Assembly (NCBI GenBank): GCA_029582155.1
Contig: CM055898.1
Span: forward strand, 29,210,745 to 29,274,744
Direction: 5' to 3'
DNA: 64,000 bases
DNA from: Panopea generosa
Taxonomy: Eukaryota; Mollusca; Bivalvia; Adapedonta; Hiatellidae
The notes under the pieces: generated by a model
Databases searched by the model: none
The model's input: the letters and a program-made list of their open reading frames with translations, nothing else
What the model was told of the DNA's origin: nothing
Program-made: the position numbers and the translations under genes
In this document: positions 6,731 through 62,490 of the stretch, piece after piece
How positions within the stretch are numbered: the first letter of the stretch is position 1
How the letters are laid out: the number at the start of each line of letters is the position of its first letter

Positions 6731-6734
6731 CTTT

Positions 6735-7109
6735 GTGTAGTCAAATGTTACCTGATGTAGACATCTGAATTATTAATTGATAATTTCACTATATTCTGTG
6801 TGCTCAAATGTTACCTGATGTAGACATCTGAATTCTTAATTGATAATTTCACCATATTCTGTGTGCTCAAATGTTACATGATGTAGACATCTGAATTATT
6901 AAATGATAATTCCACCATCTTCTGTGTGCTCAAATGTTACATGACATAGACGTCTGAATTATTAAATGATAATTCCACCATCTTCTGTGTGCTTAAATGT
7001 TACGTGATGTAGACATCTGAATTATTAACTGATAATTTCACCATCTTCTGTGTGCTCAAATGTTACATGATGTAGACATCTGAATTATTAAACGATAATT
7101 CCAACATCT
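6735..7109. repeat. 63-bp minisatellite, six copies
   Basis: The block GTGTGCTCAAATGTTAC recurs with starts near 6738, 6801, 6864, 6927, 6990 and 7053, an exact 63-bp spacing. Copies differ by a few substitutions. The period is a multiple of three, but the consensus is not continuously open, so this is not coding. Confidence 0.92.
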
Positions 7110-21204: not shown

Positions 21205-22870
21205 CCCCCAACACACAGAGTCTGAGATGTCTTTATTAAGGGAATTACTCTCAACACACACAGTCTGAGATGTCTTAATCAATGACAGACATGACCCCAA
21301 ACACACACAGTCTGAGATGTCTTAATGAATGACATGACCCCCAACACACAGTCTGAGATGTCTTTATCAATGACATGACCCCCAACACACAGTCTGAGGT
21401 ACTTTTATCAAGGGTATTACCCATAACACAGTCTAAGATGTCTTAATCAATGACATGACACTAACACACAGTCTGAGATGTCTTTATCAATGACATGACC
21501 CCTAACATACACAGTCTGAGATGTCTTAATCAATGACATGACCCCTAACACACAGTCTGAGATGTCTTTATCAATGACATGACCCCTAACATACAGTCTG
21601 AGATGTCTTAATCAATGACATGACCCCTAACACACAGTCTGAGATGTCTTAATCAATGACAATACTCCCAACACACAGTCTGAGATGTCTTAATCAATGA
21701 CAACACCCCTAACACACAGTCTGAGATGTCTTAATCAATGACAATACTCCCAACACACAGTCTGAGATGTCTTAATCAATGACATGACACTAACACACAG
21801 TCTGAGATGTCTTAATCAATGACATGACCCCTAACACACAGTCTGAGATGTCTTAATCAATGACAATACTCCCAAAACACAGTCTGAGATGTCTTAATCA
21901 ATGACATGACACTAACACACAGTCTGAAATGTCTTAATCAATGACAACACTCCCAACACACAGTCTGAGATGTCTTAATCAATGACAACACCCCTAACAC
22001 ACAGTCTGAGATGTCTTAATCAATGACAACACTCCCAACACACAGTCTGAGATGTCTTAATCAATGACATGACCCCAACACACAGTCTGAGATGTCTTAA
22101 TCAATGACAATACCCCCAACACACAGTCTGAGATGTCTTAATCAATGACATGACCCTCAACACACACAGTCTGAGATGTCTTAATTATTGACATGACCCC
22201 CAATACACAGCCTGAGATGTTTTAATCAATGACATGACCCATGCAACACACAGTCTGAGATGTCTTAACCAATGACATGACCCCTAACACACAGTCTGAG
22301 ATGTCTTTATCAATGACATACCCCCAACACACAGTCTGAGATGCTTTTTTTAAGGGTATTACCCATAACACAAAGTCTGAGATGTCTTATTCAATGACAT
22401 GACCCATAACACACAGTCCGAGATGTCTTAATCAATGACATGACCATAACACACAATCTGAGATGTCTTAATCAATGACATGACCCCAAACACACACAGT
22501 CCGAGATGTCTTTATCAATGACATGACCCCTAACATACAGCCTGAGATGTCTTTATCAATGATATGACCCCTAACACACAGCCTGAGATGTCTTTATCAA
22601 TGATATGACCCCTAACACACAGTCTGAGATGTCTTTATCAATGACATGACCCCTTACACATAGCCTGAGATGTCTTTATGAAGTGATCAAGACCTAACAC
22701 ACAGTCCGAGATGTCTTTATCAAAGACATTCATGACCCCTAACACACAGTCTGAGATGTCTTAATCAATGACGTGACCCCTAACGATGTCTTTAACCCTC
22801 TAACACAATATGAGATATCTTTATGAAGTGATCGAGATCCTACACACAGTATGAGATATCTCCATCCAAA
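21205..22870. repeat. ~43-bp minisatellite, about 38 copies
   Basis: The unit is ACACACAGTCTGAGATGTC followed by TTAATCAATGACATGACCCC and TAAC. Length varies between about 41 and 45 bp, mainly in the ACACA and CCC tracts. Two sub-variants (TTAATCAATG and TTTATCAATG) are interspersed. It decays at the right end after 22780. No frame stays open, so it is purely satellite. Confidence 0.95.
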
Positions 22871-23130: not shown

Positions 23131-23965
23131 TTGTTAAATGCGAACATAAGCTCAGCACACTCAGCCACGAACTTTCTCTACATTAGAGCTAAAATAAGCT
23201 CAGCACACTCAGCCATGAGCTTTCTCCACATTCGAGCTAAAATAAGCTCAGCACACTCAGCCATGAGCTTTCTTCACATTCATGCTAAAATAAGCTCAGC
23301 ACACTCAGCCATGAGCTTTCTTCACATTAGGGCTAAAATAAGCTCAGCACACTCAGCCATGAGCATTCTTCACATTCGAGCTAAAATAAGCTCAGCACAC
23401 TCAGCCATGAGCTTTCTTCACATTCGAGCTAAAATAAGCTCAGCACACTCAGCCATGAGCTTTCTTCACATTCGAGCTAAAATTAGCTCAGCACACTCAG
23501 CCATGAGCTTTCTCTACATTCGAGCTAAAATAAGCTCAGCACACTCAGCCATGAGCTTTCTCCACATTCAAGCTAAAATAAGCTCAGCACACTCAGCCAT
23601 GAGCTTTCTTCACATTCAAGCTAAAATTAGCTCAGCACACTCAGCCATGAGCTTTCTTCACATTCGAGCTAAAATAAGCTCAGCACACTCAGCCATGAGC
23701 TTTTTCACATTAGAGCTAAAATAAGCTCAGTACACTCAGCCATGAGCTTTCTTCACAATCGAGCTAAAATTAGCTCAGCACACTCAGCCATGAGCTTTCT
23801 CCACATTCGAGCTAAAATAAGCTCAGCACACTCAGCCATGAGCTTTCTCCACATTTGAGCTAAAATAAGCTCAGCACACTCAGCCATGAGCTTTCTTCAC
23901 ATTGGAGCTAAAATAAGCTCAGCACACTCAGCCATGAACTTTCTTCACATTCGAGCTAAAATAAA
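23131..23965. repeat. 48-bp minisatellite, about 17 copies
   Basis: The unit is AAAATAAGCTCAGCACACTC then AGCCATGAGCTTTCTTCACA and TTCGAGCT, 48 bp, highly uniform. As 48 is divisible by three, a 197-codon plus-strand frame (23131-23724) with a 16-residue repeat appears. It ends inside the array at a 1-bp indel, and I regard it as non-coding. AGCTCA...TGAGCT gives each unit a hairpin. Confidence 0.95.
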
Positions 23966-27418: not shown

Positions 27419-29052
27419 CATATGGAACCATTCGGATTTTTTTATAAATGATAGTGAGATGCTTTTTATTCATTCAAAGAGTTCTGGTAGCACAGAAACA
27501 TAATAACAGAATCAATGATTTTTTTCCTTGTTAGCTCAACTTTTTGGAGAAAAAAATATGGAAAGCCATTATTATGTCCCACGGCATCGTCACTTGTCGT
27601 CATTCGCTAACGTTTAACTCAGTGTTTTCTCTGTTGTAGAACAAAGTACCAATCTATTAGAGGCCACGCTTCAAATTTTAACACATTTATACCGTGCCAT
27701 ACAAGCATGTATAAGTTTCCATACTTTTAGCTATAAAGCTGTTTGTTTAAAGCTCAGGTTTTTTTTTATTTAATAGGTCTATAATTATTGAGTTTTCAGT
27801 AAAAGTATTGATTCTGTAAAGTGATCATCATCATGTTAAAAAATTTCACATCACTGACTTGACCTAATGGACTTAAATAAAGACAAGCGCCTGTACCCTG
27901 CTTGTGGTGTTCTGTATTGATATTAATGATAGCAATTTTGCCTGGCGTCATTATAAATCTTGTGAGTGTATGGCAACTAGGTCGACATCTGAGCAATATC
28001 ACAGCCATCTGTCTTGTGGACAAACTGCAAAATTACCTTACAGCTGAAATTTTTTTTATTTTCGTGTGTTGTCTTTCTTTATATAGGTCAAAGAATTATG
28101 TAAAGAAGGAAAGGCAATTGATTAAGATTTTGTGAATTCTCGCGTATTCACACAAAATCTTGTGACATCTCAGGAACACAGATCAAAGTATGGAATTGTC
28201 ATGAAAACAATGCCATTTCTGAAAATTTGTGTTTAAAATTGTTAAAATACTTATGATTACAAAATTTGTATACTGTAGCTAAAATAACAACAAATTATGA
28301 GAAATTTTCCTTCAAACCTCAACATCTTTAATTCAAGATTATTTTGCATGATTGAACCTTGTTTAAATATCTAAGATTCCATACAACTTACAGTTTATGT
28401 TAAGAAATCAGTTGCCTGTGAGTTATGAATGATTAATTTACTAAATAATGAATCTTGTGTGCTGTTTTATCGACATTTAGTCAGGAGATGCAAGTTTCCT
28501 ATCCTTCTATACAAGTCCTTGTATAGGTACACGACAGCAAGATTATGATAAATAATTCTTAATATGATGGCCAATCTGCATGGCCTATCTAAAATGCTTA
28601 TTTTCATTAAGCTCTTTGAGGTTATAATAATTGATATGCGTATATTTTTTTAAGAAAATCGGAAAATATATATATCAGTTATATAGATACAGAACTTTTT
28701 AATTCAAATTGATTAAAATTTATTAGCAGTTGACTTCTCTCATTTAATCACCGTAATATGGGTGAGACTAGTGGACTATCAAATAAAAAAAAAAATTGTT
28801 CTACAACGTGCTTTGATATGCACTTTTAAGCCATTAAGCCATTAAATCCTGATCCATCATGTGAGCTTTACTATCAGTATTGCAGTCTTGTTTCCAACTA
28901 TAAGTACAAGTTGTTGATGTGGACATTGTAAGCAAGAGATGTCACTTACAATTTTTATCAAATTTTTGGAGCGTCAATTACTTTCCAAGATTGTGAATTA
29001 TTTAATTATTTAAGGTGTACATTATGGAATGTATAGAAAATGTAACTATGAC
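27419..29052. other. Putative 5' part of PDE3 intron 1
   Basis: Non-coding AT-rich DNA directly downstream (in minus-strand sense) of the PDE3 exon 1 donor. A short imperfect inverted repeat GATTTTGTGAAT...ATTCACACAAAATC lies at 28126-28159. No exon was recognised. Confidence 0.5.
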
Positions 29053-29058
29053 ACTAAC
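29053..29058 (-). other. Splice donor of PDE3 exon 1
   Basis: On the minus strand the sequence reads AATCAG/GTTAGT. The exon ends after a complete CAG codon (phase 0), and the intron begins GTTAGT. The reading frame continues only 18 more codons into the intron before a stop, and those residues do not resemble PDE3. Confidence 0.85.
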
Positions 29059-29892
29059 CTGATTCTTTGGTATTAATGCTGGCAAAGATGTTCTCCGCGC
29101 CGATCTGTGTGTAGAGAATGCATGTGCTGTCGACGAACTTGATCTGCGTCGCTTGATGACTGGAATCTTCCCATCATGCGTCATAAAGTTGTTAATAGGC
29201 GGTTTCAGCACAGTTTCCATATATTTAGATACAACAAATCCACCAAGGCCACACACGTAGGCCAAATATGGGCGTAATCCCTGGGGTAAAACAACCACTG
29301 ACGAACATACTAAAAACCGTGAAAAGCTCACCAGCGAAATTACGATAGCACTATGCGTTGTTTCCAAGGAAGAAAATATACTCGCAACACATATGGCTAG
29401 CAAGACGACAAATAAAATTAGTGGTCGGTTCAGGTTACCCTCCACGGTGGCCACACTGGGGTCGAGCCCCCATCGACCAAAGGTCAGCTGGGCAAATGTC
29501 TCCCCTATGAAGCAAGCACAGAACAGCAGATACACACTGGTTGTATTCCAAGTTTTTCTCAAATAAAGAGATACCCAATAGAATACACAAACAATTGTAA
29601 ACATAGGAACAAAAAGAGAACACAGTTTTTGAAATATAATTCCCATATCACAAATTTGGTAAATCACGAAACTGGCCACAAGAAACGCAATCCCATATAT
29701 AAAACCGACGTGCTCCGTAACTGGATTAGATTCATTAATACCGATCCAATTTGATAGAAGACTGCATACATTTCCTCTATCTAATGGCTTCACTAATACT
29801 TGTATATACCCGTTATTATCCGTATCCTCGTCATCTTTGCAAGATTCATTCTTAGATCCCCTCCTCGACAAAGAAGTTCTTTGGAGGGCCAT
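29059..29892 (-). CDS. PDE3-type cyclic nucleotide phosphodiesterase, first coding exon (partial gene)
   Basis: This exon encodes the 278-residue N-terminal membrane-association region of a cGMP-inhibited phosphodiesterase (PDE3), the enzyme that hydrolyses cAMP at internal membranes. Six hydrophobic segments lie near residues 62-80, 90-111, 117-138, 156-174, 181-201 and 208-224. The diagnostic part is residues 207-278. It contains RPYLAYVCGLGG, then IPVIKRRRSSSS, then RRTSLPALIPKNQ, aligning colinearly with vertebrate PDE3A (RPYLAY..., IPVFKRRRRSSS, RRTSLPCIPREQ). The basic-serine motifs are sites of PKA/Akt-type phosphorylation in vertebrates. The ATG (GGGAAAATGG context, MALQRTS) is the first in frame; a longer frame upstream starts only at TTG, and an in-frame TGA lies at 29971-29973. 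The hydrolase domain is not in view and must be encoded by downstream exons at lower coordinates or outside the window. The exon itself is intact. Confidence 0.9.
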
Positions 29893-30045
29893 TTTCCCTC
29901 TTCGGCACAGCACCGACTGTGTGATGATCAGAGAATACACACAGTACAAGGAATCTTGGGAAATGTCAGATCAATTTGTGTATTGAAAGGCGCCCTCTAG
30001 TGGGAATCACCTGCATAACGCGGAAGTAAACATTAACACGTGGTG
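29893..30045 (-). promoter_or_regulatory. Putative PDE3 5' UTR / proximal promoter
   Basis: This immediate upstream region is less AT-rich and dense in factor-like motifs (plus-strand coordinates). A CTCF core GCCCTCTAGTGG lies at 29992-30003, an ETS-like CGGAAGT at 30021-30027, a forkhead-like GTAAACA at 30026-30032 and an E-box CACGTG at 30037-30042. No TATA box is evident in a fitting position. Motif matches are seen; function is inferred. Confidence 0.45.
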
Positions 30046-34569: not shown

Positions 34570-37090
34570 GTTTTATAACCGCCTTGTGACTGGCAATACA
34601 CATGTTAATGTAATGCATAGTAAAGCATTGAAATGATCGCAAACCGTCTTGTGACTGGCAAAAGACATGTTAATATAATGCATAGTAAAGCATTGAAATG
34701 ATCGCAAACCGCCTTGTGACTGGCAATAGACATGTTAATGTAATGCATAGTAAAGCATTGAAATGATCGCAAACCACCTTGTGACTGGCAATAAATATGT
34801 TAATTTAATGCATAGTAAAGCACTGAAATGATCGCAAACCGCCTTGTGACAGGTATAATAAAATGTAATGTATAGCAAAGCATTGCAATGATCGCAAACC
34901 GACTTTCGACAGGCAATAAACATGTAATGTAATGCAAAGTAAAGCACTGAAATGATCGCAGGCTGCCTTGTGACAATCATTGTAAAGTATAATGTATAGT
35001 AAAACACTGAAAGGATCGCAAACCGACTTTGGGCAGACAATAAACATGTAATGTAATACATAGTAAAGCATTGGATTGATTCCAAACCGCCTTGTGACAA
35101 GCGTAGTAAAAATGTAATGTATAGTAAAGCATATGATTGATTCCTAACCACCTTGTGACAAGTGTAGTAAAAATGTAATGTATAGTAAAGCATATGATTG
35201 ATTCCTAACCACCTTGTGACAAGCATAGTTAAATGTAATGTATAGCAAAGCATTGCAATGATCGCAAACCGACTTTCGACAGGCAATAAACATGTAATGT
35301 AATGCAAAGTAAAGCACTGAAATGATCGCAGGCTGCCTTGTGACAGGCAATACACATGTTAATGTAATGCATAGTAAAGCATTGAAATGATCGCAAACCG
35401 TCGTGGGGCAGGCGATAAACATGTAATGTAATGTATAGTAAAACATTGAAATGATCGCAAACCGCCTTGTGACAAGCATAGTAAAATGTAATGTATAGTA
35501 AAGCATTGAAATGATCGCAAACCGTCGTGGGGCAGGCAATAAACATGTAATGTAATGTATAGTAAAACATTGAAATGATCGCAAACCGCCTTGTGACAAG
35601 CATAATAAAATGTAATGTATAGTAAAGCATTGAAATGATCGCAAACCGTCGTGGGGCAGGCAATAAACATGTAATGTAATGTATAGTAAAACATTGAAAT
35701 GATCGCAAACCGCCTTGTGACAAGCATAGTAAAATGTAATGTATAGTAAAGCATTGAAATGATCGCAAACCGCCATGGGGCAGGCAATAAACATGTAATT
35801 AATGCATAGTAAAGCATTGGATTGAATCCAAACCGCCTTGTGACAAGCGGAGTAAAAATGTAATGTATAGTAAAGCATTGAAATGATCGCAAACCGTCGT
35901 GGGGCAGGCAATAAACATGTAATGTAATGTATAGTAAAACATTGAAATGATCGCAAACCGCCTTGTGACAAGCATAGTAAAATGTAATGTATAGTAAAGC
36001 ATTGAAATGATCGCAAACCGTCGTGGGGCAGGCAATAAACATGTAATGTAATGTATAGTAAAACATTGAAATGATCGCAAACCGCCTTGTGACAAGCATA
36101 GTAAAATGTAATGTATAGTAAAGCATTGAAATGATCGCAAACCGTCGTGGGGCAGGCAATAAACATGTAATGTAATGTATAGTAAAACATTGAAATGATC
36201 GCAAACCGCCTTGTGACAAGCATAGTAAAATGTAATGTATAGTAAAGCATTGAAATGATCGCAAACCGCCTTGGGGCAGGCAATAAACATGTAATGTAAT
36301 GTATAGTAAAGCATTGAAATGATCGCAAACCGCCTTGGGGCAGGCAATAAACATGTAATGTAATGTATAGTAAAGCATTGAAATGATCGCAAACCGCCTT
36401 GGGGCAGGCAATAAACATGTAATGTAATGTATAGTAAAGCATTGAAATGATCGCAAACCGTCGTGGGGCAGGCAATAAACATGTAATGTAATGCATAATA
36501 AAGCACTGAAATGATCACAAACCGCCTTGTGACAAGCATAGTAAAAATGAGCTTGTAATGTAATGCATGGTTAAACATTGAAATGAACACAAACCGACCT
36601 GGGGCAGGCAATAAACATGAAATGTAATGCATAGTAAAGCATTGAAATGATCTCAAACCGCCTAATGACAAGAATATTAAAAATGTAATGTATAGTAAAG
36701 CATTGAAATGATCGCAAAGCGCCTTGGGGCAGGCAATAAACATGTAATGTAATGCATAGTAAAACATTGAAATGATCGCAAACCGCCTTGCGACTGGCAA
36801 TACACATGTTGATGTTAGGCATAGTAAAGCATTGAAATGATCGTAACCTGCTTTGTGACAAGCATAGTAAAGATGTAATGTATAGTAAAGCATTGAAATG
36901 ATCGCAAACCGACTTGGGACAAGCAATTAACATGTAATGTATAGTAAAGCATTGAAATGATCGCAAACCGGATTGGTGCAAGCAATAAAAATGTAATGTA
37001 ACATTTGTATAATAAAACATTGAATTGATCGTAAACCACCTTGTGATAGGCAATCGATACGTTAATGTTATGCATAGTACAGTAATGAAT
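34570..37090. repeat. 124-bp higher-order satellite made of ~58- and ~66-bp half-units
   Basis: Every half-unit shares AGTAAAGCATTGAAATGATC then GCAAACCG. Alternating half-units end in TTGTGACAAGCATA or TGGGGCAGGCAATAAACATG. The marker TCGTGGGG recurs at 35401, 35525, 35649, (35773), 35897, 36021 and 36145, exactly 124 bp apart. The flanks (34570-35350 and 36250-37090) hold single diverged half-units. The minus strand lacks stop codons in the consensus in all three frames. Three overlapping long frames (up to 450 codons) result, all repeat translations. Confidence 0.96.
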
Positions 37091-37239
37091 TGAAGAAAAA
37101 ATGAATTGACCGTTAAACAGAACGTTAATTTCAGATTTATAGAAAGATTATTTTAGGTATGATATATTTACATAAGCTTTATCAAGTTTATTTTCAGATA
37201 ATTACGAGTTTGTACCTCTGTGTTTATAATAATATGTTG
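37091..37239. other. Short non-coding spacer
   Basis: Joins the satellite to the next SINE. Nothing recognised. Confidence 0.5.

Positions 37240-43603: not shown

Positions 43604-43668
<65 letters not shown>
43604..43668. repeat. (CT)n microsatellite
   Basis: About 65 bp of uninterrupted CT dinucleotide repeat. Confidence 0.97.
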
Positions 43669-45640: not shown

Positions 45641-45685
45641 CAGTATTGGATCTACATCAAAAACGTATTTGTAAGCTTTGCAAAC

Positions 45686-45760
45686 AGCCAGTCCGAGACT
45701 CGAACCCGGTACCCTTCGCTTACAGGGCGAATGCTCTACCGTCTGAGCTAACCGAACCGC
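45686..45760 (-). tRNA. tRNA-Thr(TGT)-like sequence, probably a pseudogene
   Basis: On the minus strand there is an A box TTAGCTCAGACGGTAGAGC, an anticodon arm TTCGC-CCTGTAA-GCGAA (anticodon TGT, Thr) and a T arm CCGGG-TTCGAGT-CTCGG, all well formed. The acceptor stem (GCGGTTC against ACTGGCT) has several mismatches even when shifted, so a working tRNA is doubtful. It may be a tRNA pseudogene or the head of a lost SINE. Confidence 0.6.
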
Positions 45761-45802
45761 TTACATAAATTCCTCTCCTGGTAGGTTACGTACACACTGA
45801 CA

Positions 45803-45852
45803 CAATTATTATTATTATTATCATTATTATTATCATTATTATTATTATTATA

Positions 45853-45912
<60 letters not shown>
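45803..45912. repeat. (ATT)n microsatellite
   Basis: About 110 bp with a few TC or TA interruptions. Poly-Asn and poly-Ile frames over it are artefacts. Confidence 0.97.
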
Positions 45913-46115
45913 AAGCTTACACATGTACTTCTTGTGAAACAATAGGTGACTTCTTTCAAAAACGTATAAAAAAAATACGTTAAGAAAATCGTGGTTTCAA
46001 AGTTTCGGTGCAAGTTATATGTAACAGTGCGTGTGTACGGTTTCAGATATGTCGACTAGTAACTTTACTAACCAACAATCTCATTCTTTATAAAATTTTC
46101 GTTTTGTATTCATCG

Positions 46116-46962
46116 TACCGAGTTTTCAGTTTACTTTCTGAGATTAAACTATTAATCTCTAGAACGGACCCAGTTCTCCCGATTGAATCCGTTAAATAGC
46201 AATATTGGGAAAGCCACATTGAAACACGTTGATTGGTCAGTTTCGTTCAACTGCTTTGAATTGTGGGACAGGCATAGAATTCCCTGCTTTTTTGTATTGG
46301 AGGTTAATAGACCTGATTCGGGAGATATCTAGATAACTAAATAACAATTGTGTTTCTGGAGAAAAGTATACATGCAGAAAAGAGAAAAAGAAGAAAAAAA
46401 TTCTTTTTTTTCTGGAATCGATAAATGAAAAGAAAAACTGATTTAATCTTTTACAACTTACAAAATAAATAAATATTTGTTACATATACTATGTAGGTGT
46501 GTGTAAGGTGTATAGAGGGATGACCCATCCCGACCTTCATACACCTCACCATCACGGGTGATTAAATGGACCACCATAAACTAATATGGTGGTTAAAATT
46601 AAAAAACACAGTCCTATTTCTACTTGGAAACCGGGCCAACTCATTCTCAACCCAGTTCATTTTTGTTTTAAAATGATAGTATGACTTCTAAATCAGTTCT
46701 GCTGGAGTTACAGACCTGTTATATCATACTCTACTCTAGTCTATCCTAGAACAGGATATCTCTGGAATCAGGTCTATTAACCCCCAATTAAAAAAAAGCA
46801 GGACATTCTATGCCTTACCCACATTTCATAGCAATTGAACGCTTACTAAACTGACGTCATTCAATTTTCAGTTAACTGACCAGTCAAACTGCTCAAATGT
46901 GGCTTCCCCAACATTGCTATTTAACAGACCTAGTCCGTTCTACAGACTAACTATACTCGGTA
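46116..46962. mobile_element. Foldback element with ~220-bp inverted arms
   Basis: Left arm 46116 to ~46340 and right arm ~46740 to 46962 are inverted copies. Examples are TACCGAG/CTCGGTA at the outer ends, AGAACGGAC/GTCCGTTCT, TATTTAACGG-like blocks with GCAATATTGGG/CCCAACATTGC, and GGAGGTTAATAGACCTGATT against AATCAGGTCTATTAACCCCC. The 400-bp centre contains two smaller hairpins, one a perfect ACCACCATA/TATGGTGGT at 46570-46593. There is no coding content. It is a non-autonomous long-TIR element; the superfamily is not recognised. Confidence 0.75.
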
Positions 46963-47146
46963 AATACTGGCATGCAATCTTCTTAAACAATTAAAGCAAT
47001 TACCACGACGGTATTAGTGGACTTTTGAAGTTACGACGGGTTATGTCTATGATAATCATTATGTAGATGATTGTATGTGAAGAGGCTTATGATCATATTA
47101 TTGTTGCAAAGGTCGCAACCTATTTGTACTTGTGTGGAACAATTAT

Positions 47147-47262
47147 TTGTCTGTTTGAATATTTGGCCTCATTTTTATGTCATCGAGGGCTAACAGACGA
47201 CCAGCTTAATCACTCTTTCTAACAACAACCAGTCGGTCCATCGATTACGGAATGATCTTGGT
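47147..47262 (-). mobile_element. SINE family C 3' fragment (duplication copy 1)
   Basis: The plus strand reads GGCCTCATTTTTATGTCATC, GAGGGCTAACAGACGACC, the inverse of the family C 3' end. An identical fragment lies at 51346-51461 in the second duplication copy. Confidence 0.6.
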
Positions 47263-47549
47263 AGCGGACACATGGGAACACAAACATAGGTGGTACAGTA
47301 TTGCCACTAGCTTGAACTGGTTTAAACATATTTTATTGCCATATATATACAATTTGGTCGGGTCATAGGTTCTTATAACGTTAAAACAATATACAGAATG
47401 GCTATAAATCTTTTAGAAAGTTCTGCTTTTATTAATAAATTCAATGCTTAAACGAATTCAATTCATTCACTGCCGCACACATAGTGACAAGTTCATCTAT
47501 GTCAGCAGAAATGAGCGATCCCACTTACTTCATTCCTTTAGAAGCTACA

Positions 47550-48115
47550 TCATAACGGAGAATCTGGAGAGAAGTTATTCCAGTTTCGTCAATGTTCCAG
47601 CATTACGGAGATTCTGGAGAGAAACTTTTTCCAGTTTCGTCAATGTTCCTACATTACTGAGATTCTGAAGAGAAGTTATTCCAGTTTCGTCATTGTTCCA
47701 GCATAACGGAGATTCTGGAGAGAAGCTTTTCCAGTTTAGTCAATGTTCCAGCATTACGGAGATTCTGGAGGGAAGACATTCCAGTTTCGTCGAGATTCTG
47801 GAGAGAAGCTATTCCAGTTTCGTAAATAATCCAGCATTACAGAGATTCTGGAGAGAAGCTATTCCAGTTTCGTTAATGTTCCAGCATTACGGAGATTCTG
47901 GAGAGAAGTTATTCCATTTTCGTTAATGTTCCAGCATAACGGATATTCTGGAGAGAAGCTATTTCAGTTTCGTAAATGTTCCAGCATTACGGAGATTCTG
48001 GAGAGAAGCTATTCGAGTTTCGCCAATGTTCAAGTATTACGGAGATTCTAGAGAGAAAAGTGATTCCAGCATCGTCAATGTTCCAGCATACATTCTGGAG
48101 AGAAGTTATACTAGT
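47550..48115. repeat. 50-bp minisatellite, about 11 copies
   Basis: The unit is GGAGATTCTGGAGAGAAGCT then ATTCCAGTTTCGTCAATGTT and CCAGCATTAC, 50 bp, with some shortened units (47785-47805). Short plus-strand frames (47444-47926) are array translations. It abuts the 25-bp array directly, and an identical copy is at 51749-52314. Confidence 0.93.
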
Positions 48116-48118
48116 TTT

Positions 48119-50797
48119 GTAGACAAGGAGTAGCACCAACAATGTAGACAAGGAGTAGCACCAACAACGTTGACAAGGTGTAGCGCCAAAAAACGTAGAC
48201 AAGGTGTAGAATCCACAATGTAGACAAGGAGTAGCACCAACAACGTTGACAAGGTGCAGCACCAACAAGGTAGACACAGAGTAGCACCAACAACGTAGAC
48301 AAGGAGTAGCACCAACAGCGTAGACAAGGTGTAGCACCAACAACGTAGACAAGGAGTAGCACCAACAACGTAGACAATATGTAGCACCAGCAACGTAGAC
48401 AAGGAGCAGCACTTACAACGTAGACAGGGAGTAACACTAACACCGTAGACAAGATACAGCACCAACAACATAGACAAGGTGTAGCACCAAGAACGTAGAC
48501 AAGGAGTAGCATCAACAACGTAGACAAGGAGTAGCAACAACAACGTAGACAAGGAGTAGCACCTACAACGTAGACAAGGAGTAGCAGTTATAACGTAGAT
48601 AAGGAGTAGCACCAAAAACGTAGACAAGGTGTAGCACCAACAACGTAGACAATGAGAAGCACCAACAACGAGGTGTAGCACCAGCAACGTAGACAAGGAG
48701 TAGCACCAACAACGTAGTCAAGGAGTAGCACAAACAACGTAGACAAGGTGTAACACCAACAACGTTGAAAAGGAGTTATATCAACAATGTAGACATATCG
48801 TAGCACCAACAACGTAGACAAGGAGTAGCACCAACAACGTAGACAAGGAGTAGCACAAAAAACGTAGACAAGGAGTAGCACCAACAACGTAGACAAGGTG
48901 TAGCACCAACAACGTAGACAATGTGTAGCACCAGCAACGTACACAAGGAGTAGCACTTACAACGTAGACAGGGAGTAACACTTACACCGTAGAAAAGATG
49001 TAGCACCAACAACGTAGACAAGGTGTAGCACCAAGAGCGTAAACAAGGAGTAGCATCAACAACGTAGACAAGGAGAAGCAACAACAACGTAGACAAGGAG
49101 TAGCACCTACAACGTAGACAAGGAGAAGCAGTTATAACGTAGATAAGGAGTAGCACCAACAATGTAGACAAGGTGTAGCACCAACAACGTAGACAATGAG
49201 AAGCACCAACAACGAGGTGTAGTACCAGCAACGTAGACAAGGAGTAGCACCAACAACGAAGTCAAGGAGTAGCACTAACAACGTAGACAAGGTGTAACAC
49301 CAACAACGTTGACAAGGAGTTATACCAACAATGTAGACATAACGTAGCACCAACAACGTAGACAAGGAATAGCACCATCAACGTAGACAAGCAGTAGAAC
49401 CAACAACGTAGACAAGGAGTAGTGCCTACAACGTAGACAAGGAGTAGCACCAACAACGTAGTCAGTGAGTAGCACCAACAACGCAGCGAGGAGTAGCGCC
49501 AACAACGTAGACAAGGAATAGCACCAACAACGAAGACAAGGTTAAGCTCTAACAGCGTAGTCAGGGAGTAGCACCAACATCTTAGACAAGGTGTAGCAGC
49601 AACAACGTAGACAAGGAGTAGCACCAACAACGTAGACAAGGTGTAGCACCAATAACGTAGACAAGGAGTAGCACCAATGACGTAGACAAGGTGTAGCACC
49701 AACAACGTAGATAAGGTGTAGCACCAACAGCGTTGACAAGGAGTAGCACCAACAACGAGGTGTAGCACCAACAACGTAGACAAGGAGTAGCACCAACAAC
49801 GTAGTCAGGGAGTAGCACCAACAACTTAGACAAGGTGTTGCGTTGCACCAAGAATATAGACAAGGTGTAGCACCAACAATGTAAATTAGGAGTAGCACCA
49901 ACAACGTAGACAAGGAGTAGAACCAACAACACAGACAAGGTTTAGCACCAACAACGTAGACAAGGAGTAGCACCAACAACGTAGACAAGGAGTAGCACCA
50001 ACAACGTAGACAAGGTGTAGCAACTACAACGTAGACAAGGAGTTGCACCAACAACGTAGACAATGTGTAGCACCAACAACGTAGACAAGGTGTAGCACTA
50101 ACAACGTAGACAAGGTGTAGCACCAACAACGTAGACAAGGAGTTGCACAAAAAACATAGACAATGTGTAGCACCAACAAGGTAAACAAGATGTAGCGCTA
50201 GCAACGTAGACAAGGTGTAGCACCAACAACGTAGACAAGGTGTAGCGCCAACAACGGAAACAAGGTGTATCAACAACAACGTAGACAAGGAGTAGCACCA
50301 ACAACGTAGACAAGGAGTAGCACCAACAACGAGGTGTAGCTCCAACAACGTAGACAAGGAGTAGCACCAACAACATAAACAAGGAGTAGCACCAACAACG
50401 TAGACAATGTGTAACACCAACAATGATGACAAGAAGTTATACCAACAATGTAGACAAGGAGTAGCACCAACAACGTAGACAAGGAGTAGCACCAACAACG
50501 TAGACAAGGATTAGCAGCAGCAACGTAGACAAGGAGTAGCACCAACAACGTAGACAAGGTGTAGCACCAACAATATGACAATTGTAGCAGCAACAACGTA
50601 GACAAGGAGTATCACCAACAATGTAGACCGGGAGTAGCATCAACAATTTGGACAGGGGGTATCGCCAACAACGTAGACAAGGAGTAATGCTAACAATGTA
50701 GACAGAGAGTCAGACCAACAACATAGACAAGGAGTAGCACCAACAACTTAGACAAGGTGTTGCACCAACAACGTAGACAAGGTGTAGCACCAACAAC
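48119..50797. repeat. 25-bp minisatellite, about 107 units (duplication copy 1)
   Basis: The unit is GTAGACAAGGAGTAGCACC then AACAAC, 25 bp, T-poor on the plus strand. A shortened marker unit (AACAACGAGGTGTAG) recurs at about 48668, 49212, 49755 and 50329, defining a higher-order period near 544 bp (574 for the last). The minus strand is largely stop-free in all frames. Because 25 is not a multiple of three, every frame reads the same 25-residue Leu/Val/Cys-rich repeat. None of these frames is credible as a gene. Confidence 0.96.
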
Positions 50798-51345
50798 TTA
50801 AAAAACACAGTCCTATTTCTACTTGGAAACCGGGCCAACTCATTCTCAACCCAGTTCATTTTTGTTTTAAAATGATAGTATGACTTCTAAATCAGTTCTG
50901 CTGGAGTTACAGACCTGTTATATCATACTCTACTCTAGTCTATCCTAGAACAGGATATCTCTGGAATCAGGTCTATTAACCCCCAATTAAAAAAAAGCAG
51001 GACATTCTATGCCTTACCCACATTTCATAGCAATTGAACGCTTACTAAACTGACGTCATTCAATTTTCAGTTAACTGACCAGTCAAACTGCTCAAATGTG
51101 GCTTCCCCAACATTGCTATTTAACAGACCTAGTCCGTTCTACAGACTAACTATACTCGGTAAATACTGGCATGCAATCTTCTTAAACAATTAAAGCAATT
51201 ACCACGACGGTATTAGTGGACTTTTGAAGTTACGACGGGTTATGTCTATGATAATCATTATGTAGATGATTGTATGTGAAGAGGCTTATGATCATATTAT
51301 TGTTGCAAAGGTCGCAACCTATTTGTACTTGTGTGGAACAATTAT

Positions 51346-51461
51346 TTGTCTGTTTGAATATTTGGCCTCATTTTTATGTCATCGAGGGCTAACAGACGAC
51401 CAGCTTAATCACTCTTTCTAACAACAACCAGTCGGTCCATCGATTACGGAATGATCTTGGT
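51346..51461 (-). mobile_element. SINE family C 3' fragment (duplication copy 2)
   Basis: Identical to 47147-47262, displaced by 4199 bp. Confidence 0.6.
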
Positions 51462-51748
51462 AGCGGACACATGGGAACACAAACATAGGTGGTACAGTAT
51501 TGCCACTAGCTTGAACTGGTTTAAACATATTTTATTGCCATATATATACAATTTGGTCGGGTCATAGGTTCTTATAACGTTAAAACAATATACAGAATGG
51601 CTATAAATCTTTTAGAAAGTTCTGCTTTTATTAATAAATTCAATGCTTAAACGAATTCAATTCATTCACTGCCGCACACATAGTGACAAGTTCATCTATG
51701 TCAGCAGAAATGAGCGATCCCACTTACTTCATTCCTTTAGAAGCTACA

Positions 51749-52314
51749 TCATAACGGAGAATCTGGAGAGAAGTTATTCCAGTTTCGTCAATGTTCCAGC
51801 ATTACGGAGATTCTGGAGAGAAACTTTTTCCAGTTTCGTCAATGTTCCTACATTACTGAGATTCTGAAGAGAAGTTATTCCAGTTTCGTCATTGTTCCAG
51901 CATAACGGAGATTCTGGAGAGAAGCTTTTCCAGTTTAGTCAATGTTCCAGCATTACGGAGATTCTGGAGGGAAGACATTCCAGTTTCGTCGAGATTCTGG
52001 AGAGAAGCTATTCCAGTTTCGTAAATAATCCAGCATTACAGAGATTCTGGAGAGAAGCTATTCCAGTTTCGTTAATGTTCCAGCATTACGGAGATTCTGG
52101 AGAGAAGTTATTCCATTTTCGTTAATGTTCCAGCATAACGGATATTCTGGAGAGAAGCTATTTCAGTTTCGTAAATGTTCCAGCATTACGGAGATTCTGG
52201 AGAGAAGCTATTCGAGTTTCGCCAATGTTCAAGTATTACGGAGATTCTAGAGAGAAAAGTGATTCCAGCATCGTCAATGTTCCAGCATACATTCTGGAGA
52301 GAAGTTATACTAGT
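51749..52314. repeat. 50-bp minisatellite (duplication copy 2)
   Basis: Identical to 47550-48115, shifted by 4199 bp. Confidence 0.93.
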
Positions 52315-52317
52315 TTT

Positions 52318-55300
52318 GTAGACAAGGAGTAGCACCAACAATGTAGACAAGGAGTAGCACCAACAACGTTGACAAGGTGTAGCGCCAAAAAACGTAGACA
52401 AGGTGTAGAATCCACAATGTAGACAAGGAGTAGCACCAACAACGTTGACAAGGTGCAGCACCAACAAGGTAGACACAGAGTAGCACCAACAACGTAGACA
52501 AGGAGTAGCACCAACAGCGTAGACAAGGTGTAGCACCAACAACGTAGACAAGGAGTAGCACCAACAACGTAGACAATATGTAGCACCAGCAACGTAGACA
52601 AGGAGCAGCACTTACAACGTAGACAGGGAGTAACACTAACACCGTAGACAAGATACAGCACCAACAACATAGACAAGGTGTAGCACCAAGAACGTAGACA
52701 AGGAGTAGCATCAACAACGTAGACAAGGAGTAGCAACAACAACGTAGACAAGGAGTAGCACCTACAACGTAGACAAGGAGTAGCAGTTATAACGTAGATA
52801 AGGAGTAGCACCAAAAACGTAGACAAGGTGTAGCACCAACAACGTAGACAATGAGAAGCACCAACAACGAGGTGTAGCACCAGCAACGTAGACAAGGAGT
52901 AGCACCAACAACGTAGTCAAGGAGTAGCACAAACAACGTAGACAAGGTGTAACACCAACAACGTTGAAAAGGAGTTATATCAACAATGTAGACATATCGT
53001 AGCACCAACAACGTAGACAAGGAGTAGCACCAACAACGTAGACAAGGAGTAGCACAAAAAACGTAGACAAGGAGTAGCACCAACAACGTAGACAAGGTGT
53101 AGCACCAACAACGTAGACAATGTGTAGCACCAGCAACGTACACAAGGAGTAGCACTTACAACGTAGACAGGGAGTAACACTTACACCGTAGAAAAGATGT
53201 AGCACCAACAACGTAGACAAGGTGTAGCACCAAGAGCGTAAACAAGGAGTAGCATCAACAACGTAGACAAGGAGAAGCAACAACAACGTAGACAAGGAGT
53301 AGCACCTACAACGTAGACAAGGAGAAGCAGTTATAACGTAGATAAGGAGTAGCACCAACAATGTAGACAAGGTGTAGCACCAACAACGTAGACAATGAGA
53401 AGCACCAACAACGAGGTGTAGTACCAGCAACGTAGACAAGGAGTAGCACCAACAACGAAGTCAAGGAGTAGCACTAACAACGTAGACAAGGTGTAACACC
53501 AACAACGTTGACAAGGAGTTATACCAACAATGTAGACATAACGTAGCACCAACAACGTAGACAAGGAATAGCACCATCAACGTAGACAAGCAGTAGAACC
53601 AACAACGTAGACAAGGAGTAGTGCCTACAACGTAGACAAGGAGTAGCACCAACAACGTAGTCAGTGAGTAGCACCAACAACGCAGCGAGGAGTAGCGCCA
53701 ACAACGTAGACAAGGAATAGCACCAACAACGAAGACAAGGTTAAGCTCTAACAGCGTAGTCAGGGAGTAGCACCAACATCTTAGACAAGGTGTAGCAGCA
53801 ACAACGTAGACAAGGAGTAGCACCAACAACGTAGACAAGGTGTAGCACCAATAACGTAGACAAGGAGTAGCACCAATGACGTAGACAAGGTGTAGCACCA
53901 ACAACGTAGATAAGGTGTAGCACCAACAGCGTTGACAAGGAGTAGCACCAACAACGAGGTGTAGCACCAACAACGTAGACAAGGAGTAGCACCAACAACG
54001 TAGTCAGGGAGTAGCACCAACAACTTAGACAAGGTGTTGCGTTGCACCAAGAATATAGACAAGGTGTAGCACCAACAATGTAAATTAGGAGTAGCACCAA
54101 CAACGTAGACAAGGAGTAGAACCAACAACACAGACAAGGTTTAGCACCAACAACGTAGACAAGGAGTAGCACCAACAACGTAGACAAGGAGTAGCACCAA
54201 CAACGTAGACAAGGTGTAGCAACTACAACGTAGACAAGGAGTTGCACCAACAACGTAGACAATGTGTAGCACCAACAACGTAGACAAGGTGTAGCACTAA
54301 CAACGTAGACAAGGTGTAGCACCAACAACGTAGACAAGGAGTTGCACAAAAAACATAGACAATGTGTAGCACCAACAAGGTAAACAAGATGTAGCGCTAG
54401 CAACGTAGACAAGGTGTAGCACCAACAACGTAGACAAGGTGTAGCGCCAACAACGGAAACAAGGTGTATCAACAACAACGTAGACAAGGAGTAGCACCAA
54501 CAACGTAGACAAGGAGTAGCACCAACAACGAGGTGTAGCTCCAACAACGTAGACAAGGAGTAGCACCAACAACATAAACAAGGAGTAGCACCAACAACGT
54601 AGACAATGTGTAACACCAACAATGATGACAAGAAGTTATACCAACAATGTAGACAAGGAGTAGCACCAACAACGTAGACAAGGAGTAGCACCAACAACGT
54701 AGACAAGGATTAGCAGCAGCAACGTAGACAAGGAGTAGCACCAACAACGTAGACAAGGTGTAGCACCAACAATATGACAATTGTAGCAGCAACAACGTAG
54801 ACAAGGAGTATCACCAACAATGTAGACCGGGAGTAGCATCAACAATTTGGACAGGGGGTATCGCCAACAACGTAGACAAGGAGTAATGCTAACAATGTAG
54901 ACAGAGAGTCAGACCAACAACATAGACAAGGAGTAGCACCAACAACTTAGACAAGGTGTTGCACCAACAACGTAGACAAGGTGTAGCACCAACAACTTAG
55001 ACAAGGTGTTGCACCAACAACGTAGACGAGGTGTAGCATCAACAACGTAGACAAGGAGTAGCACTAACAACGAGGTGTGGCACCAACAACGTAGACAAGG
55101 AATTACACAAACAACGTAGACAATGAATAGCACCAACAACGTAGACAAGGAGTAGCACCAACAACGTTGACAAGGTGTAGTACCAACAACGTAGGCAATG
55201 TGTAGCACTAACAACGCAGACATGGTGTAGCACCAACAACGCAGACGAGGTGTAGCACCAACAACGTAGACAAGGTGTAGCACCAACAACGCAGACAGAC

Positions 55301-56845
55301 AAGGTGTAGCACCAACAACGCAGACAAGGTGTAGCACCAACAACGTAGACAAGGAGTAACACCAACAACGAAGACAAGGAGTAGCACCATTAATGTAGAC
55401 AAGGTGTAGCACCAACAACGTAGACAAGATGTAGCACCAACAAGGTAGACAAGATGTATCACCAAAAACGTAGACAAGATGTAGCACCAACAACGTAGAC
55501 AAGGTGTAGCACCAACAATGTAGACAAGGAGTAGCACCAACAGCATAGACAATGTGTAACACCAACAACGAAGACAAGGAGTAGCACCACCAACGAGGTG
55601 TAGCATTAACAACGTAGACAAGGAGAAGCACCAACATTGTAGACAAGGAGTAGCACCAACGATGTAGACAAGGAGGAGCACCAACAACGTAGACAAGGAG
55701 TAGCACCAACAACGTAGACAAGGAGGAGCACCAACAACGTAGACAAGGTGTAGCACCAACAACGTAGACAAGGAGTAGCACCAACAATGTAGACAATTAG
55801 TAGGACCAACAACGTAGACAAGGAGTAGCAACAGTAATGTAGACAAGGATTAGAACCTACAACGTAGACAATGTGTAGCACCAACAATGTAGACACGGTG
55901 TAGCACCAACAACGTAGACAAGGAGTAGCACAAACAAAGTAGACAAGTAGAAGAACCAACAACAAAGACAAGGAGTAGCACCTACAATGTAGACAAGGAG
56001 TAGCACTAACAATGTAGACAAGGAGTAGCACCAACAACATAGACAACGAGTAGCACCAACAATGTAGACAAGGAGTAGCACCAACAATGTAGACAATGAG
56101 TAGCACCAATAACGTAGACAAGGAGTAGCACCAACAATGTAGACAATGAGTAGCACCAACAATGTAGACAAGAAGTAGCACCAACAATGTAGACAAGGAG
56201 TAGCACCAACAACGTAGAGAAAGAGTAGCACCAACAACGTAGACAAGTAGAAGCACCAACAACGTAGACAAGGAGTAGCACCTACAACGTAGACAAAGAG
56301 TAGCACCAACAATGTAGACAAGGAGTAGCACCAACAACATAGACAATGAGTAGCACCAACAATGTAGACAAGGAGTAGCACCAACAACGTAGACAAGGAG
56401 TAGCACCAGCAATGTAGACAAGGAGTAGCACCAACAATATAGACAAGGAGCAGCACCAACAATGTAGACAAGGAGTAGCACCATTAATGTAGACAAGGAG
56501 CAGCACCAACAATGTAGACAAGGAGCAGCACCAACAACATAGAAAAGGAGTAGCACCAATAATAAAGACAAGGAGCAGCACCAACAACGTAGACAAGGAG
56601 TAGCATCAACAATGTAGACAAGGAGTAGCACCTACAACATAGACAAGGAGCAGCACCAACGACGTAGACAAGGAGCAGCACCAACAATGTAGACAAGGAG
56701 CAGCACCAACAACGTAGAATAGGAGTAACACCAACAATGTAGACAAGGAGCAGCACCAACAATGTAGACAAGGAGTAGCACCAACAATGTAGACAAGGAG
56801 TAGCACCATTAATGTAGACAAGGTGTAGCACCAACAATGTAAACA
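52318..56845. repeat. 25-bp minisatellite, about 180 units
   Basis: The first part (to 54996) is the duplicated array. Beyond it the same 25-bp unit runs on to 56845 with its own variation. From about 55990 rightwards the units become more uniform, with AATGTAGACAAGGAGTAGC common. The longest minus-strand frames (295, 321 and 341 codons) are repeat translations. Confidence 0.96.
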
Positions 56846-57040: not shown

Positions 57041-57072
57041 GGAGAGAGAGAGAGAGAGAGAGCGAGAGCGAG

Positions 57073-57112
<40 letters not shown>

Positions 57113-57138
57113 AGGGAGGGAGGGGGGAGGGAGGGAGG

Positions 57139-57175
<37 letters not shown>

Positions 57176-57201
57176 AGGGAGGGAGAGAGAGAGAGAGAGA
57201 G
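57041..57201 (+). repeat. (GA)n/(GGGA)n microsatellite
   Basis: A 160-bp purine-only (apart from a few C) tract alternating GA, GAGC and GGGA blocks. It could form triplex DNA. Ser/Leu/Pro and Arg/Glu frames over it are artefacts. Confidence 0.97.
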
Positions 57202-59439: not shown

Positions 59440-62400
59440 ACATTCATAGTTGTTAGTTCATAGAATGTCAATCGCTATTATATGTAAATATTTTAACTGT
59501 ACACATTAGTTTTATGGTGTATGTTTATAATGATCGGTTAATAAAGTGTTTTCTTTTCTGCGTTGTATATGAATTTTGCTATGTTTGTTAACAAAGCTTT
59601 TGAGTTTGTGGATATAAGTGATTGAATTTTTTTTATCGCTTGCCAACCACAGTAGTATTTTTTATAGTAGGTATTCCTTAAGTGTCTATATTCGGGACAC
59701 GCCAGAAGGAAATGATATTCATTTTCGATTTAGTTCATTTTGCATTTTGTACAAATTCTGTTTTCTCTTGGTTATTGTTATTGTATCTTCCTGTTTCTAT
59801 AGCTAAATTATGTGACAATATGCGAAATCTTGAAAATGCGTATTTATATTTATTTTCTTTTATTGCGTCTAAGTATTTAACTGTTTTAAAGTCGTGTTTA
59901 AATAAGCTATAACACTGTAATCCGGATGAGTTGTTTATTTCTGAGTACCAGGTATCATGTTTTAGCATTGAATAGCTATTTTTAGCTAAGGAGTTTCGTC
60001 TAGAGGATTTTTATCCAGCATTTTGTCATGTTGATTGTTTTGATAACTTGTAGTGGAACTCTTGCTAGTTCTCCATAAAGTGTATTCAAATGTGTAGATT
60101 TTTTAACTCACAATATTCGTCTAAGAAATTTGCTATATACTCGTTCGATATCAGTGGCTTTATATTCACCCCATATTCCAGAGCCAAAGTCTATAATTAT
60201 CCTACTTAGCAATCAAACATTTTGCATTGATCTTTTATAGGTGGTTCAATGTTAGGAATAGTTTAAATATATTGTATAATGCAAAACTTCCGTACTGTGC
60301 TAGATGTTTTTGACTTTGATTCAAATTACTGTTTTTAAATAATTGTATTCCTAAGTACTTAAATAGTGTAACTGTTTCTATTGGAGTTTTATATATGTAG
60401 AAATCTTGGTGTGTATGGCGTCTTTTTTCCAATATGACAGTTTTAGTTTTGGTTGTGTCTATTTTAAGACCCCATTGGTTACAATATCGTTCAATATCAT
60501 TAAAATTGATAATCGGCATCGGTATCGGCATCGGCGTATATAATTAAGAACAACTTTAATTCATTGTGAATAAAATATCCTGTAAGTTACTATTGATGTT
60601 GTCTTTAATATCATTAAGGAAAAGCACGTAGGGCAGGCTTGGGCTGGGATCCCCTTGCTTTACTCCCATGTGTGAGTCGATAAAATCCGAATATTCCGAG
60701 TTATACCTAACGCATGCTTTTACGACTTTGTACATTTAATTGATTTGATAGCTTCGACTACTTTACAACTTATGTTCTCATTTAGTAGTTTTTGCCACAG
60801 AAACTGCCTATCGATGCTGTCGTAGGCTTTTTCGAAATTTATGAAAACCCAGTAGAGCTTTTCTCTCGAGTTAAGAACTTTTGTAATTATGGAATGTAAT
60901 AAGAATATACAGACTTCAATAGATTTACCCTTTTGGTAAGCAAATTGGTTGTTGATAATTTTGTCATATTTTTGTGATTATTCCGATAGTCTGTTCACTA
61001 AAAGCTGCGAGTATATTTTTCTTAATATATTAACGAGTGTAATAGCTCTATGGTTTTTTGTTACATTTATATTTTTTGTAGACGGGTACAATAATCCCAC
61101 GGCCCCATTCCTCTGGATATTCACTTTTGTTGAACATTCTGTTGTATAATTTTAATAGAAATGGTGAGATTATGTTGAAAGATGATTTGAATAGTTCGCT
61201 AAAAATTCTTCCAAACCACGACTTTTGTTAATCTTGCGATGACATTGCGGGTCTTTGTTCTTGTAAACTTATATCTGTATCTAAAGTTGGATCGTTAAAT
61301 ATTATGTTATCATTTTCGTTATTAACTGAGTTGTCTCTGAATTGTTTTCGCGAACCACAAGTTAAAAATGATTGTAAAAATCATTTGCGTTTAATGTTTC
61401 AGTATTATTATTTCTATGTGTGGTTTTTATTTTCTTCCTAAATTGTCTTGGGTGTGTTTTTGCTAAATTAATTTCCTTCTTTGAATTTAAATGCTCTCAT
61501 TGACATTTGCTTAATTATTTTTATATTTTGTGCGTGCTTTGGAAAATTTAAAAAATAAAATTCTGTTTTCTTTGTTTCTATTATTGTTGAAAATGTTTCT
61601 TTTTTTTTTTAAATTCTTCTTTTGCTTTATGTCGTTTTTCATCAAACCAAGGCGTTTTTATTCTGTCTACACGTGGTTTCACTGTGTTCTTAGCTGTGCG
61701 ACTTACCGATTATATCGGACACGTTATCCTTCATGAACTCTGTGAATGTAGAAACCACGCAGTTTAGGGGGTCATTGGAGATACTATTACTTAGTTGTTG
61801 AAGCGTAGTATTTTTGTTTAACAGGTGTGACCTGAATTGGTCAGTTTTTGTCTCGTCCCATACTATTTTGTTGACAGGTTGACTGTCCGCTCGTGCGTTA
61901 TTTTGTGTTGATATACTTTTTTTATAAAAACAAAATAAAATAGGCGAGTGATAAGAAAATTCATTTGGTTCTAGTATTTGAAAGTTATACAGAGTTGTAA
62001 AATCATGAAAATTCATCAACAAATTATCGAATGTTCCATTGATACAAATATTCGCCTACAGTATCATTGTATAGCCTGCCATTTGCTATGAGAAGTTCTG
62101 TGGACTGACAGACGCCCATTTGCGTCGAGCACGTGATCTTTATTTGCGCGTAATGGTATGTCGTGTGAATCTTCAAGCATGGGTGATAAAGTCTTGCGTG
62201 TTTGCGATTCTACTGTTTAGATCTCCACAAATAGATATATATCCAAGAAAAAAAAACATTTGTTCGAAAAAATCAAAATTGTCTGAGTTTATTATTTTTG
62301 AACAAATTGGGGTTATGTAAACATGACAAATATGCGCATCTTCATTAAATATCAATAAATCAGCATCAATTTTCAGCCAGATTAATCCATATTGCTCTTT

Positions 62401-62490
62401 CTCTTTAATGTTTATATATTCACTTACATTATTTTTAAAATAAAATGATAATCCGCCGCTGTAAGGTCCTTTCTTTTGGTATTTTTTTTA
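59440..62490 (-). pseudogene. Dead non-LTR retrotransposon (LINE), endonuclease to C-terminal zinc knuckle
   Basis: Reading the minus strand: apurinic endonuclease blocks GPYSGGLSFYFKNN (about 62465), ICGDLNSRIAN (about 62212) and a YHSPI motif standing for SDHSPI (about 61945). A linker follows. Reverse transcriptase blocks come next: YPEEWGRGIIVPV (about 61110), NNQFAYQKGKSIEV (about 60945), FINFEKAYDSIDR (motif A, about 60845) and VKQGDPSPS (motif B, about 60665). Then thumb YCNQWGLKI, KYLGIQLF and FALYNIFKLF, and a C-terminal CTKC...H...C knuckle near 59700. Stops and frameshifts are numerous. The catalytic YADD site is gone, replaced by a short CCGATG repeat. The 5' end is truncated. It groups with CR1/Jockey/L1-like elements; the clade is not resolved. 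Confidence 0.9.
60509..60537. repeat. GCATCG/GTATCG hexanucleotide repeat inside the LINE
   Basis: Four to five copies of ATCGGC/ATCGGT (plus strand) lie exactly where the reverse transcriptase YADD motif should be encoded. The catalytic motif is replaced by an MPIPMPI-type read-through. Confidence 0.85.

Follow-up and report, generated by a model that had tools for sequence, protein, structure and literature searches.

The 64-kb window, by which we mean the whole stretch of DNA that was analysed, carries a 4199-bp sequence twice in immediate succession, and our leading, if tentative, reading of this arrangement is a real, very young and probably still polymorphic direct tandem duplication produced by one-step microhomology-mediated template switching. 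The earlier note had described an apparently identical tandem duplication and proposed a self-alignment at an offset of 4199 bp with a mismatch count. Comparing copy 1 (46599..50797, + strand) with copy 2 (50798..54996, + strand) in this way, we found 0 mismatches in 4199 positions, which corresponds to a 95% upper bound of about 0.07% (rule of three). The sole exact run of at least 15 bp at this offset measures 4202 bp, positions 46599-50800 being equal to 50798-54999. The copies are adjacent and equally oriented, their offset is the length of the unit, and the junction between them is gap-free, the N count of the window being 0. We also searched the genome (1.47 Gb in 39 contigs, the window lying on a 93-Mb contig) with positions 46500-47500, and the unit was matched at this locus alone among the matches scored, which were 40 of 4841 first-look candidates, a sample that rare longer relatives could escape. 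Elsewhere in the window, Pfam and PDB searches with a 315-aa frame at 29002-29949 yielded nothing useful, nor did a scan of the window and 40 kb of flanks for the phosphodiesterase catalytic motif.

The unit is made up of 0.95 kb of non-array sequence, a 50-bp minisatellite (47551..48121, + strand, Tandem Repeats Finder; again at +4199) and about 2.68 kb of a 25-bp minisatellite, in agreement with the approximately 2.7 kb per copy given before. In copy 1 the 25-bp array (48119..50797, + strand, Tandem Repeats Finder and array parse) is truncated at the junction, while in copy 2 it runs on to an undisturbed right end (52318..56845, + strand; 4528 bp, parsed into 183 pieces). We take the latter as the pre-duplication array, the first 2679 bp of which were duplicated. 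With one copy removed, a single continuous array stands between the left and the right flank, so that one event explains the whole arrangement. Within the single-copy array, the longest exact repeat is 60 bp, the best listed self-alignment reaches 88%, and its first 600 bp have their best other match at 91% identity. Since exact repeats inside the array go no further than 60 bp, every other sizeable duplication that the array contains must be much older than this one; this supports the recency that had been claimed for it. The earlier note had listed a recent event and a polymorphic copy-number variant as separate options, and these are effectively one explanation, as so young a duplication is expected to be polymorphic. 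For comparison, we scanned six control blocks of 20 kb (120 kb in total) from six other contigs for repeats that reach 60 bp or more at an offset of 100 bp or more. Apart from the duplication, exact repeats extend to 290 bp in the window and to 142 bp in the 40 kb of flanks, and the six control blocks hold none above 478 bp; no other large exact tandem duplication was seen in the controls or the flanks. In a genome search with the 25-bp array, 15 of 19 matches fell within this locus and the other four elsewhere, at 64-71% identity, each of them (4/4) in a tandem array. The outside loci were chosen through this genome-wide search, and the units of three of them were compared with the 25-bp unit by shuffling, the fourth locus, L050, having a 27-bp unit: none of 300 shuffles was as similar as the units of L047 (22 bp) and L048 (25 bp), whereas 7 of 300 reached the likeness of the 13-bp unit of L049. 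These arrays may be distantly akin to that of the locus.

The exact run exceeds the unit by 3 bp, TTA, which are common to the two breakpoints and, as had been claimed, are the only homology that these share. At the left breakpoint (46599..46601, + strand) the exact run starts, the preceding base being A (46598) against C (50797); at the right breakpoint (54997..54999, + strand) TTA forms the first three bases of the array monomer TTAGACAAGGTGTTGCACCAACAAC in the phase of the repeat finder. The novel junction (50798..50800, + strand), where an array monomer runs into TTA and the left-hand sequence of the unit, is clean, with neither inserted or templated bases nor serial switches. The long homology between breakpoints that marks non-allelic homologous recombination (NAHR) was not found, the two sharing 3 bp only, and a 3-bp TTA is a microhomology of the kind seen in FoSTeS/MMBIR. 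By itself it is weak evidence, because, when positions in 45700-48000 are joined at random to positions in the array (200,000 draws), 5.0% of the joins share at least 3 bp, or 2.6% with the left breakpoint held fixed. These figures, like the window cover of hairpins below, were calculated after the features had come to notice and do not amount to a test.

Two candidate fork-stalling structures are found at the left breakpoint. The hairpin noted earlier is indeed present at 46570..46593, ending 5 bp outside the breakpoint, and is a perfect 9-bp stem with a 6-nt loop (ACCACCATA-AACTAA-TATGGTGGT) that is single-copy and unduplicated. Folded as DNA, its + strand gives -8.0 kcal/mol (0 of 200 shuffles equally good) and its - strand -7.6 kcal/mol (1 of 200). 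The window contains 12 hairpins of this type, which, with margins of about 6 bp, take in 0.7% of its positions. The second structure was absent from the earlier note: two inverted copies of a dispersed repeat of about 200 bp (inverted repeats I1-I4, 82-89% complementary) enclose a 425-nt loop, and the left breakpoint falls inside it. The left arm of the pair lies at 46152..46329 (- strand) and the right arm, within the unit, at 46737..46950 (+ strand), and again at 50936-51149. Loops between inverted arms of at least 60 nt make up 1.5% of the window minus one copy, and this location is a weak feature because such loops cover 7.2%, 0% and 7.1% of the three control blocks, out of six, that were scanned for them (20 kb each).

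The dispersed nature of the arms comes from the search with 46500-47500, a query that takes in the hairpin, in which 44 matches were listed, two of them being the local copies. Among the remaining 42, 41 lay within query positions 226-450 (window ~46725-46949) and one at 653-720 (47152-47219), a second short dispersed piece. We considered a transposon-like unit ending in the hairpin and rejected it, given this confinement of 41 of 42 non-local matches among those scored. Less firmly, we rejected a fold-back element spanning 46152-46950: in 20 of 20 loci fetched around other copies of the repeat (L021-L040), one unit of about 200 bp alone matched both arms. Most of these loci hold a single copy. 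A further copy within the fetched stretch is inverted in three (L021, L038 and L039) and in direct orientation in two (L031 and L040), so inverted neighbours occur elsewhere too. From these comparisons we read the pair at 46152-46950 as two probably separate insertions.

Template switching is favoured because of the identity of the copies (0/4199), the clean 3-bp junction, and the hairpin and inverted-repeat loop at the left breakpoint. A leftward fork would have replicated as far as 46599 before stalling just ahead of the hairpin ending at 46593; its 3' end, TAA, would have re-annealed to the already copied TTA of the array at 54997-54999, and the fork would then have copied the same 4199 bp again. 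The duplication resembles those ascribed to FoSTeS/MMBIR or serial replication slippage in its direct orientation, few shared bases, lack of long end homology and non-B DNA near a breakpoint, but differs from them in having one breakpoint inside a minisatellite. Unlike in FoSTeS/MMBIR, templated insertion is absent here, which leaves the replication model unproven; such insertions or serial switches are diagnostic if present, and simple events need none. In Drosophila, 41% of 644 copy-number breakpoints are reported as simple ends with microhomology of at least 2 bp and breakpoints as enriched in non-B DNA; tandem duplications were only 2 of 50 polarised insertions there, which counts against our explanation (PMC4056370). 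So do the position of the right breakpoint in a repeat array, a setting in which assembly programs also go wrong, and the lack of a comparable duplication in the controls and flanks. In reality there may be more than two copies, if the locus was not spanned by the reads behind the assembly. It is improbable, in our judgement, that the hairpin and the inverted repeat act as a standing replication barrier at which flank-plus-array duplications recur, in a growing, highly polymorphic macrosatellite of which some individuals would carry more copies than were assembled.

The earlier proposal of fork stalling and template switching therefore stands in so far as it fits the hairpin, the microhomology and the inverted repeat, but end joining gives an equal junction. 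A real duplication formed independently of replication, by microhomology-mediated or classical end joining of staggered sister-chromatid breaks or by re-insertion of an excised circle, fits the insertion-free 3-bp junction equally well, and the two kinds of model are described as hard to distinguish at simple breakpoints (PMC4056370). Long inverted repeats have been linked to end-joined breakpoints (PMC4319165), in a study whose subject is deletions rather than duplications. We nevertheless find this origin unlikely: it requires two breaks and has no need for a hairpin, yet one lies at the expected stall site of a leftward fork. Ordinary expansion of the minisatellite, through unequal crossing over or NAHR, is scarcely credible. 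The unit does contain 2.68 kb of minisatellite and, as in VNTR expansions, a variant-rich 25-bp array, but it adds 0.95 kb of non-array sequence and the 50-bp array, its left breakpoint is about 0.95 kb from its nearest array, and the junction is non-homologous; with that homology missing, these mechanisms are refuted for the present junction. We also consider it very improbable that the duplication is old and its identity maintained by gene conversion or unequal exchange. Repeat arrays can undergo homogenisation, but here identity reaches the last base at both ends and spans the non-array sequence and the 50-bp array, and the 25-bp array, to go by its internal divergence, is not homogenised.

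A more serious alternative, though less likely than our leading reading, is an assembly artefact in which the same 4199 bp were entered twice through read chimerism, ungapped joining of contigs or wrong gap filling. A bookkeeping error yields perfect identity, one end of the unit lies within a minisatellite, no comparable exact duplication occurs in the controls or flanks, and amplification chimeras could show microhomology and a hairpin alike. GA/CT-rich repeats flank the locus (43605-43668 and 57042-57201); such repeats lead to poor HiFi coverage, which is relevant here only if HiFi was used. As in false duplications, the neighbouring copies are of extreme identity, and perfect copies match the homotype class, described as free of heterozygous k-mers; in some false duplications, incorrect gap filling leaves read-depth gaps that join the copies (PMC9516828). 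Here, in contrast, the junction holds no N, although an N gap is usual and not obligatory in such cases, and allelic differences are absent: an allelic (heterotype) duplication should, outside a homozygous stretch, show heterozygous differences. Moreover, a 3-bp overlap is too short for a repeat-graph overlap, so that the junction would have originated in a molecule, in a read or through a blind join, and a blind join predicts neither microhomology nor hairpin.

The exact duplication is an ordinary kind of event, whether copying accident or assembly error, and general understanding is unchanged whether it is real or false. As an assembly error, it would be a useful case of a duplication introduced without a gap. 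If real, it captures a tandem duplication beside a minisatellite in a clean state, its copies still unmarked by mutation, and it predicts which way the stalled fork was moving, which can be tested.

The window was compared with itself by script at an offset of 4199 bp, keeping exact runs of at least 15 bp, and a single run was obtained, in which positions 46599–50800 match 50798–54999 over 4202 bp. The two copies of the 4199-bp unit (46599–50797 and 50798–54996) show 0 mismatches in 4199 positions. On the left the run is bounded by a mismatch (A at 46598 versus C at 50797), and the three bases beyond 4199, TTA, are common to the left (46599–46601) and right (54997–54999) breakpoints. The earlier note had proposed this very self-alignment with a mismatch count, and its coordinates, length, microhomology and adjoining hairpin were all correct; its observation was fully borne out, and its interpretation was supported in part.

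The window corresponds to positions 29210745–29274744 of a 93-Mb contig in a genome of 1,474,161,289 bases and 39 contigs. This size is in the eukaryotic range, and the gene-like frame at 29002–29949 points to an animal. We listed exact repeats of at least 60 bp at offsets of at least 100 bp in six 20-kb control blocks, each from a different other contig, and the longest measured 147, 166, 161, 84, 478, and 67 bp. The second-longest exact repeat of the window is 290 bp, versus 4202 bp for the duplication, and the 20-kb flanks, one per side, gave 142 bp and none. Among four loci fetched for other reasons (L047 to L050), the values were none, 382 bp, 92 bp, and none. Nothing approaching 4202 bp was found in the sampled DNA, and the 120 kb of controls represent only a small fraction of the 1.47-Gb genome.

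The left end of the unit, about 0.95 kb, is free of arrays and holds a copy of a dispersed repeat of about 200 bp (46737–46950) and a short dispersed piece (47152–47219). It is followed by a 50-bp minisatellite (47551–48121) and by a 25-bp minisatellite, which occupies 2679 bp of copy 1 (48119–50797). A genome search with 46500–47500 returned 44 matches among the 40 candidates scored of 4841 found at first look: two are the local copies, 41 fall in the dispersed-repeat part of the query, and one corresponds to the short dispersed piece at 47152–47219. In copy 2 the 25-bp array extends to 56845, and therefore the simplest ancestor is one array of 4528 bp; of the 183 pieces into which it parses, 169 measure 25 bp. 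A monomer boundary coincides with the right breakpoint in the phase chosen by the repeat finder, a phase that is partly convention, and no inference was drawn from it.

With 0 differences in 4199 sites, the divergence of the copies is below about 0.07% (95%, rule of three), and a duplication this young, if real, is probably polymorphic. Apart from it, the array carries no other fresh sizeable duplication, although short, recent slippage over a few monomers is possible: the best listed self-alignment of the ancestral array is 88% identical and its longest exact repeat is 60 bp. With a query of 600 bp from the start of the array, we obtained 19 matches, 15 in this locus (the best of them, duplication aside, 91% identical and 549 bp away) and four elsewhere at 64–71% identity. 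All four outside loci contain tandem arrays, and we compared the units of three. Those of 22 bp (L047:1782–4200, a large array on contig C6) and 25 bp (L048:1672–4694, a large array on contig C11 with exact internal repeats up to 382 bp) were nearer to the 25-bp unit than all 300 shuffles, and the likeness of the 13-bp unit of L049 was equalled in 7 of 300. As the loci were chosen by a genome-wide search, the shuffle result does not establish kinship of the arrays; a scattered, diverged minisatellite family including the L047 and L048 arrays is possible. Further minisatellites lie in the window at 6734–7109 (63-bp unit), 14567–15638 (33 bp), 21213–22784 (41 bp), 23146–23964 (48 bp), and 34577–37093 (64 bp). 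Judged by exact repeats alone, several control blocks also hold short-offset clusters (from 1 to 162 pairs in a 20-kb block), so arrays of this kind appear to be common across the genome.

Elsewhere in the window, a 315-aa open frame on the minus strand (29002–29949) contains several hydrophobic segments, and its tail reads RRRSSSS...RRTSLPALIPKNQ. We take it to resemble exon 1 of a PDE3-type phosphodiesterase; it had no match in Pfam or the PDB, and a scan of the window and 40 kb of flanks detected no phosphodiesterase catalytic motif. Judged by appearance alone, broken open frames at 60238–62487 (minus strand) resemble the remains of a non-LTR retrotransposon reverse transcriptase. A tRNA-Thr (anticodon TGT; 45685–45757, minus strand) was called by ARAGORN and Rfam roughly 840 bp before the left breakpoint; 45700–45815 has a weak match in a control locus, L043 (72%, 116 bp), and the tRNA may be a true gene or may belong to a dispersed element.

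The hairpin at 46570–46593, with a stem of 9 bp and a loop of 6 nt, is not part of the unit; 5 bp separate it from the left breakpoint. Its folding energies as DNA, −8.0 and −7.6 kcal/mol for the two strands, were equalled by 0 and 1 of 200 shuffles, respectively. The window has 12 such hairpins, with 0.7% of positions inside one or within about 6 bp. The left breakpoint also falls in the 425-nt loop between inverted dispersed-repeat copies (46152–46329 and 46755–46950), which are 82–89% complementary in four ungapped pieces. We read the pair as two insertions in preference to a single fold-back element, since one unit of about 200 bp matches both arms in all 20 other loci fetched; a further copy lies nearby in inverted orientation in 3 of the 20 and in direct orientation in 2. 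Such loops account for 1.5% of the window once one copy is removed; in the three of six control blocks that were scanned, the values are 7.2, 0, and 7.1%. At least 3 bp were common in 5.0% of 200,000 random joins between 45700–48000 and the array, in 5.5% of those between 1000–45000 and the array, and, with the true left breakpoint fixed, at 2.6% of array positions. These chance figures were computed after the features had been seen, so their support is only moderate.

A leftward fork halting just short of the hairpin would leave a nascent end, TAA, at 46599, which could anneal to TTA at 54997–54999 in the array already copied; resumed copying would then yield exactly the observed product. End joining of two breaks would produce an identical junction, and replication and end joining are described as hard to tell apart at simple breakpoints (PMC4056370). 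With only 3 bp of homology, this junction cannot have arisen by homologous recombination.

Repeat arrays and GA/CT-rich repeats are places where assemblies fail. One end of the unit lies within a repeat array and GA/CT-rich repeats flank it on both sides, which would suit an assembly artefact, an explanation that we consider plausible but less likely: there is no gap between the copies (the window holds 0 N bases) and no allelic difference, although differences can also be absent from false duplications of the homotype class. PMC9516828 names as marks of false duplication a read depth that is halved or very low, gaps separating the copies, and discordant read pairs, with single-copy k-mers as a further mark of the heterotype class. 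We favour a recent tandem duplication in direct orientation, joined at microhomology, over an assembly error. The locus would then add one more case to a familiar class of event.
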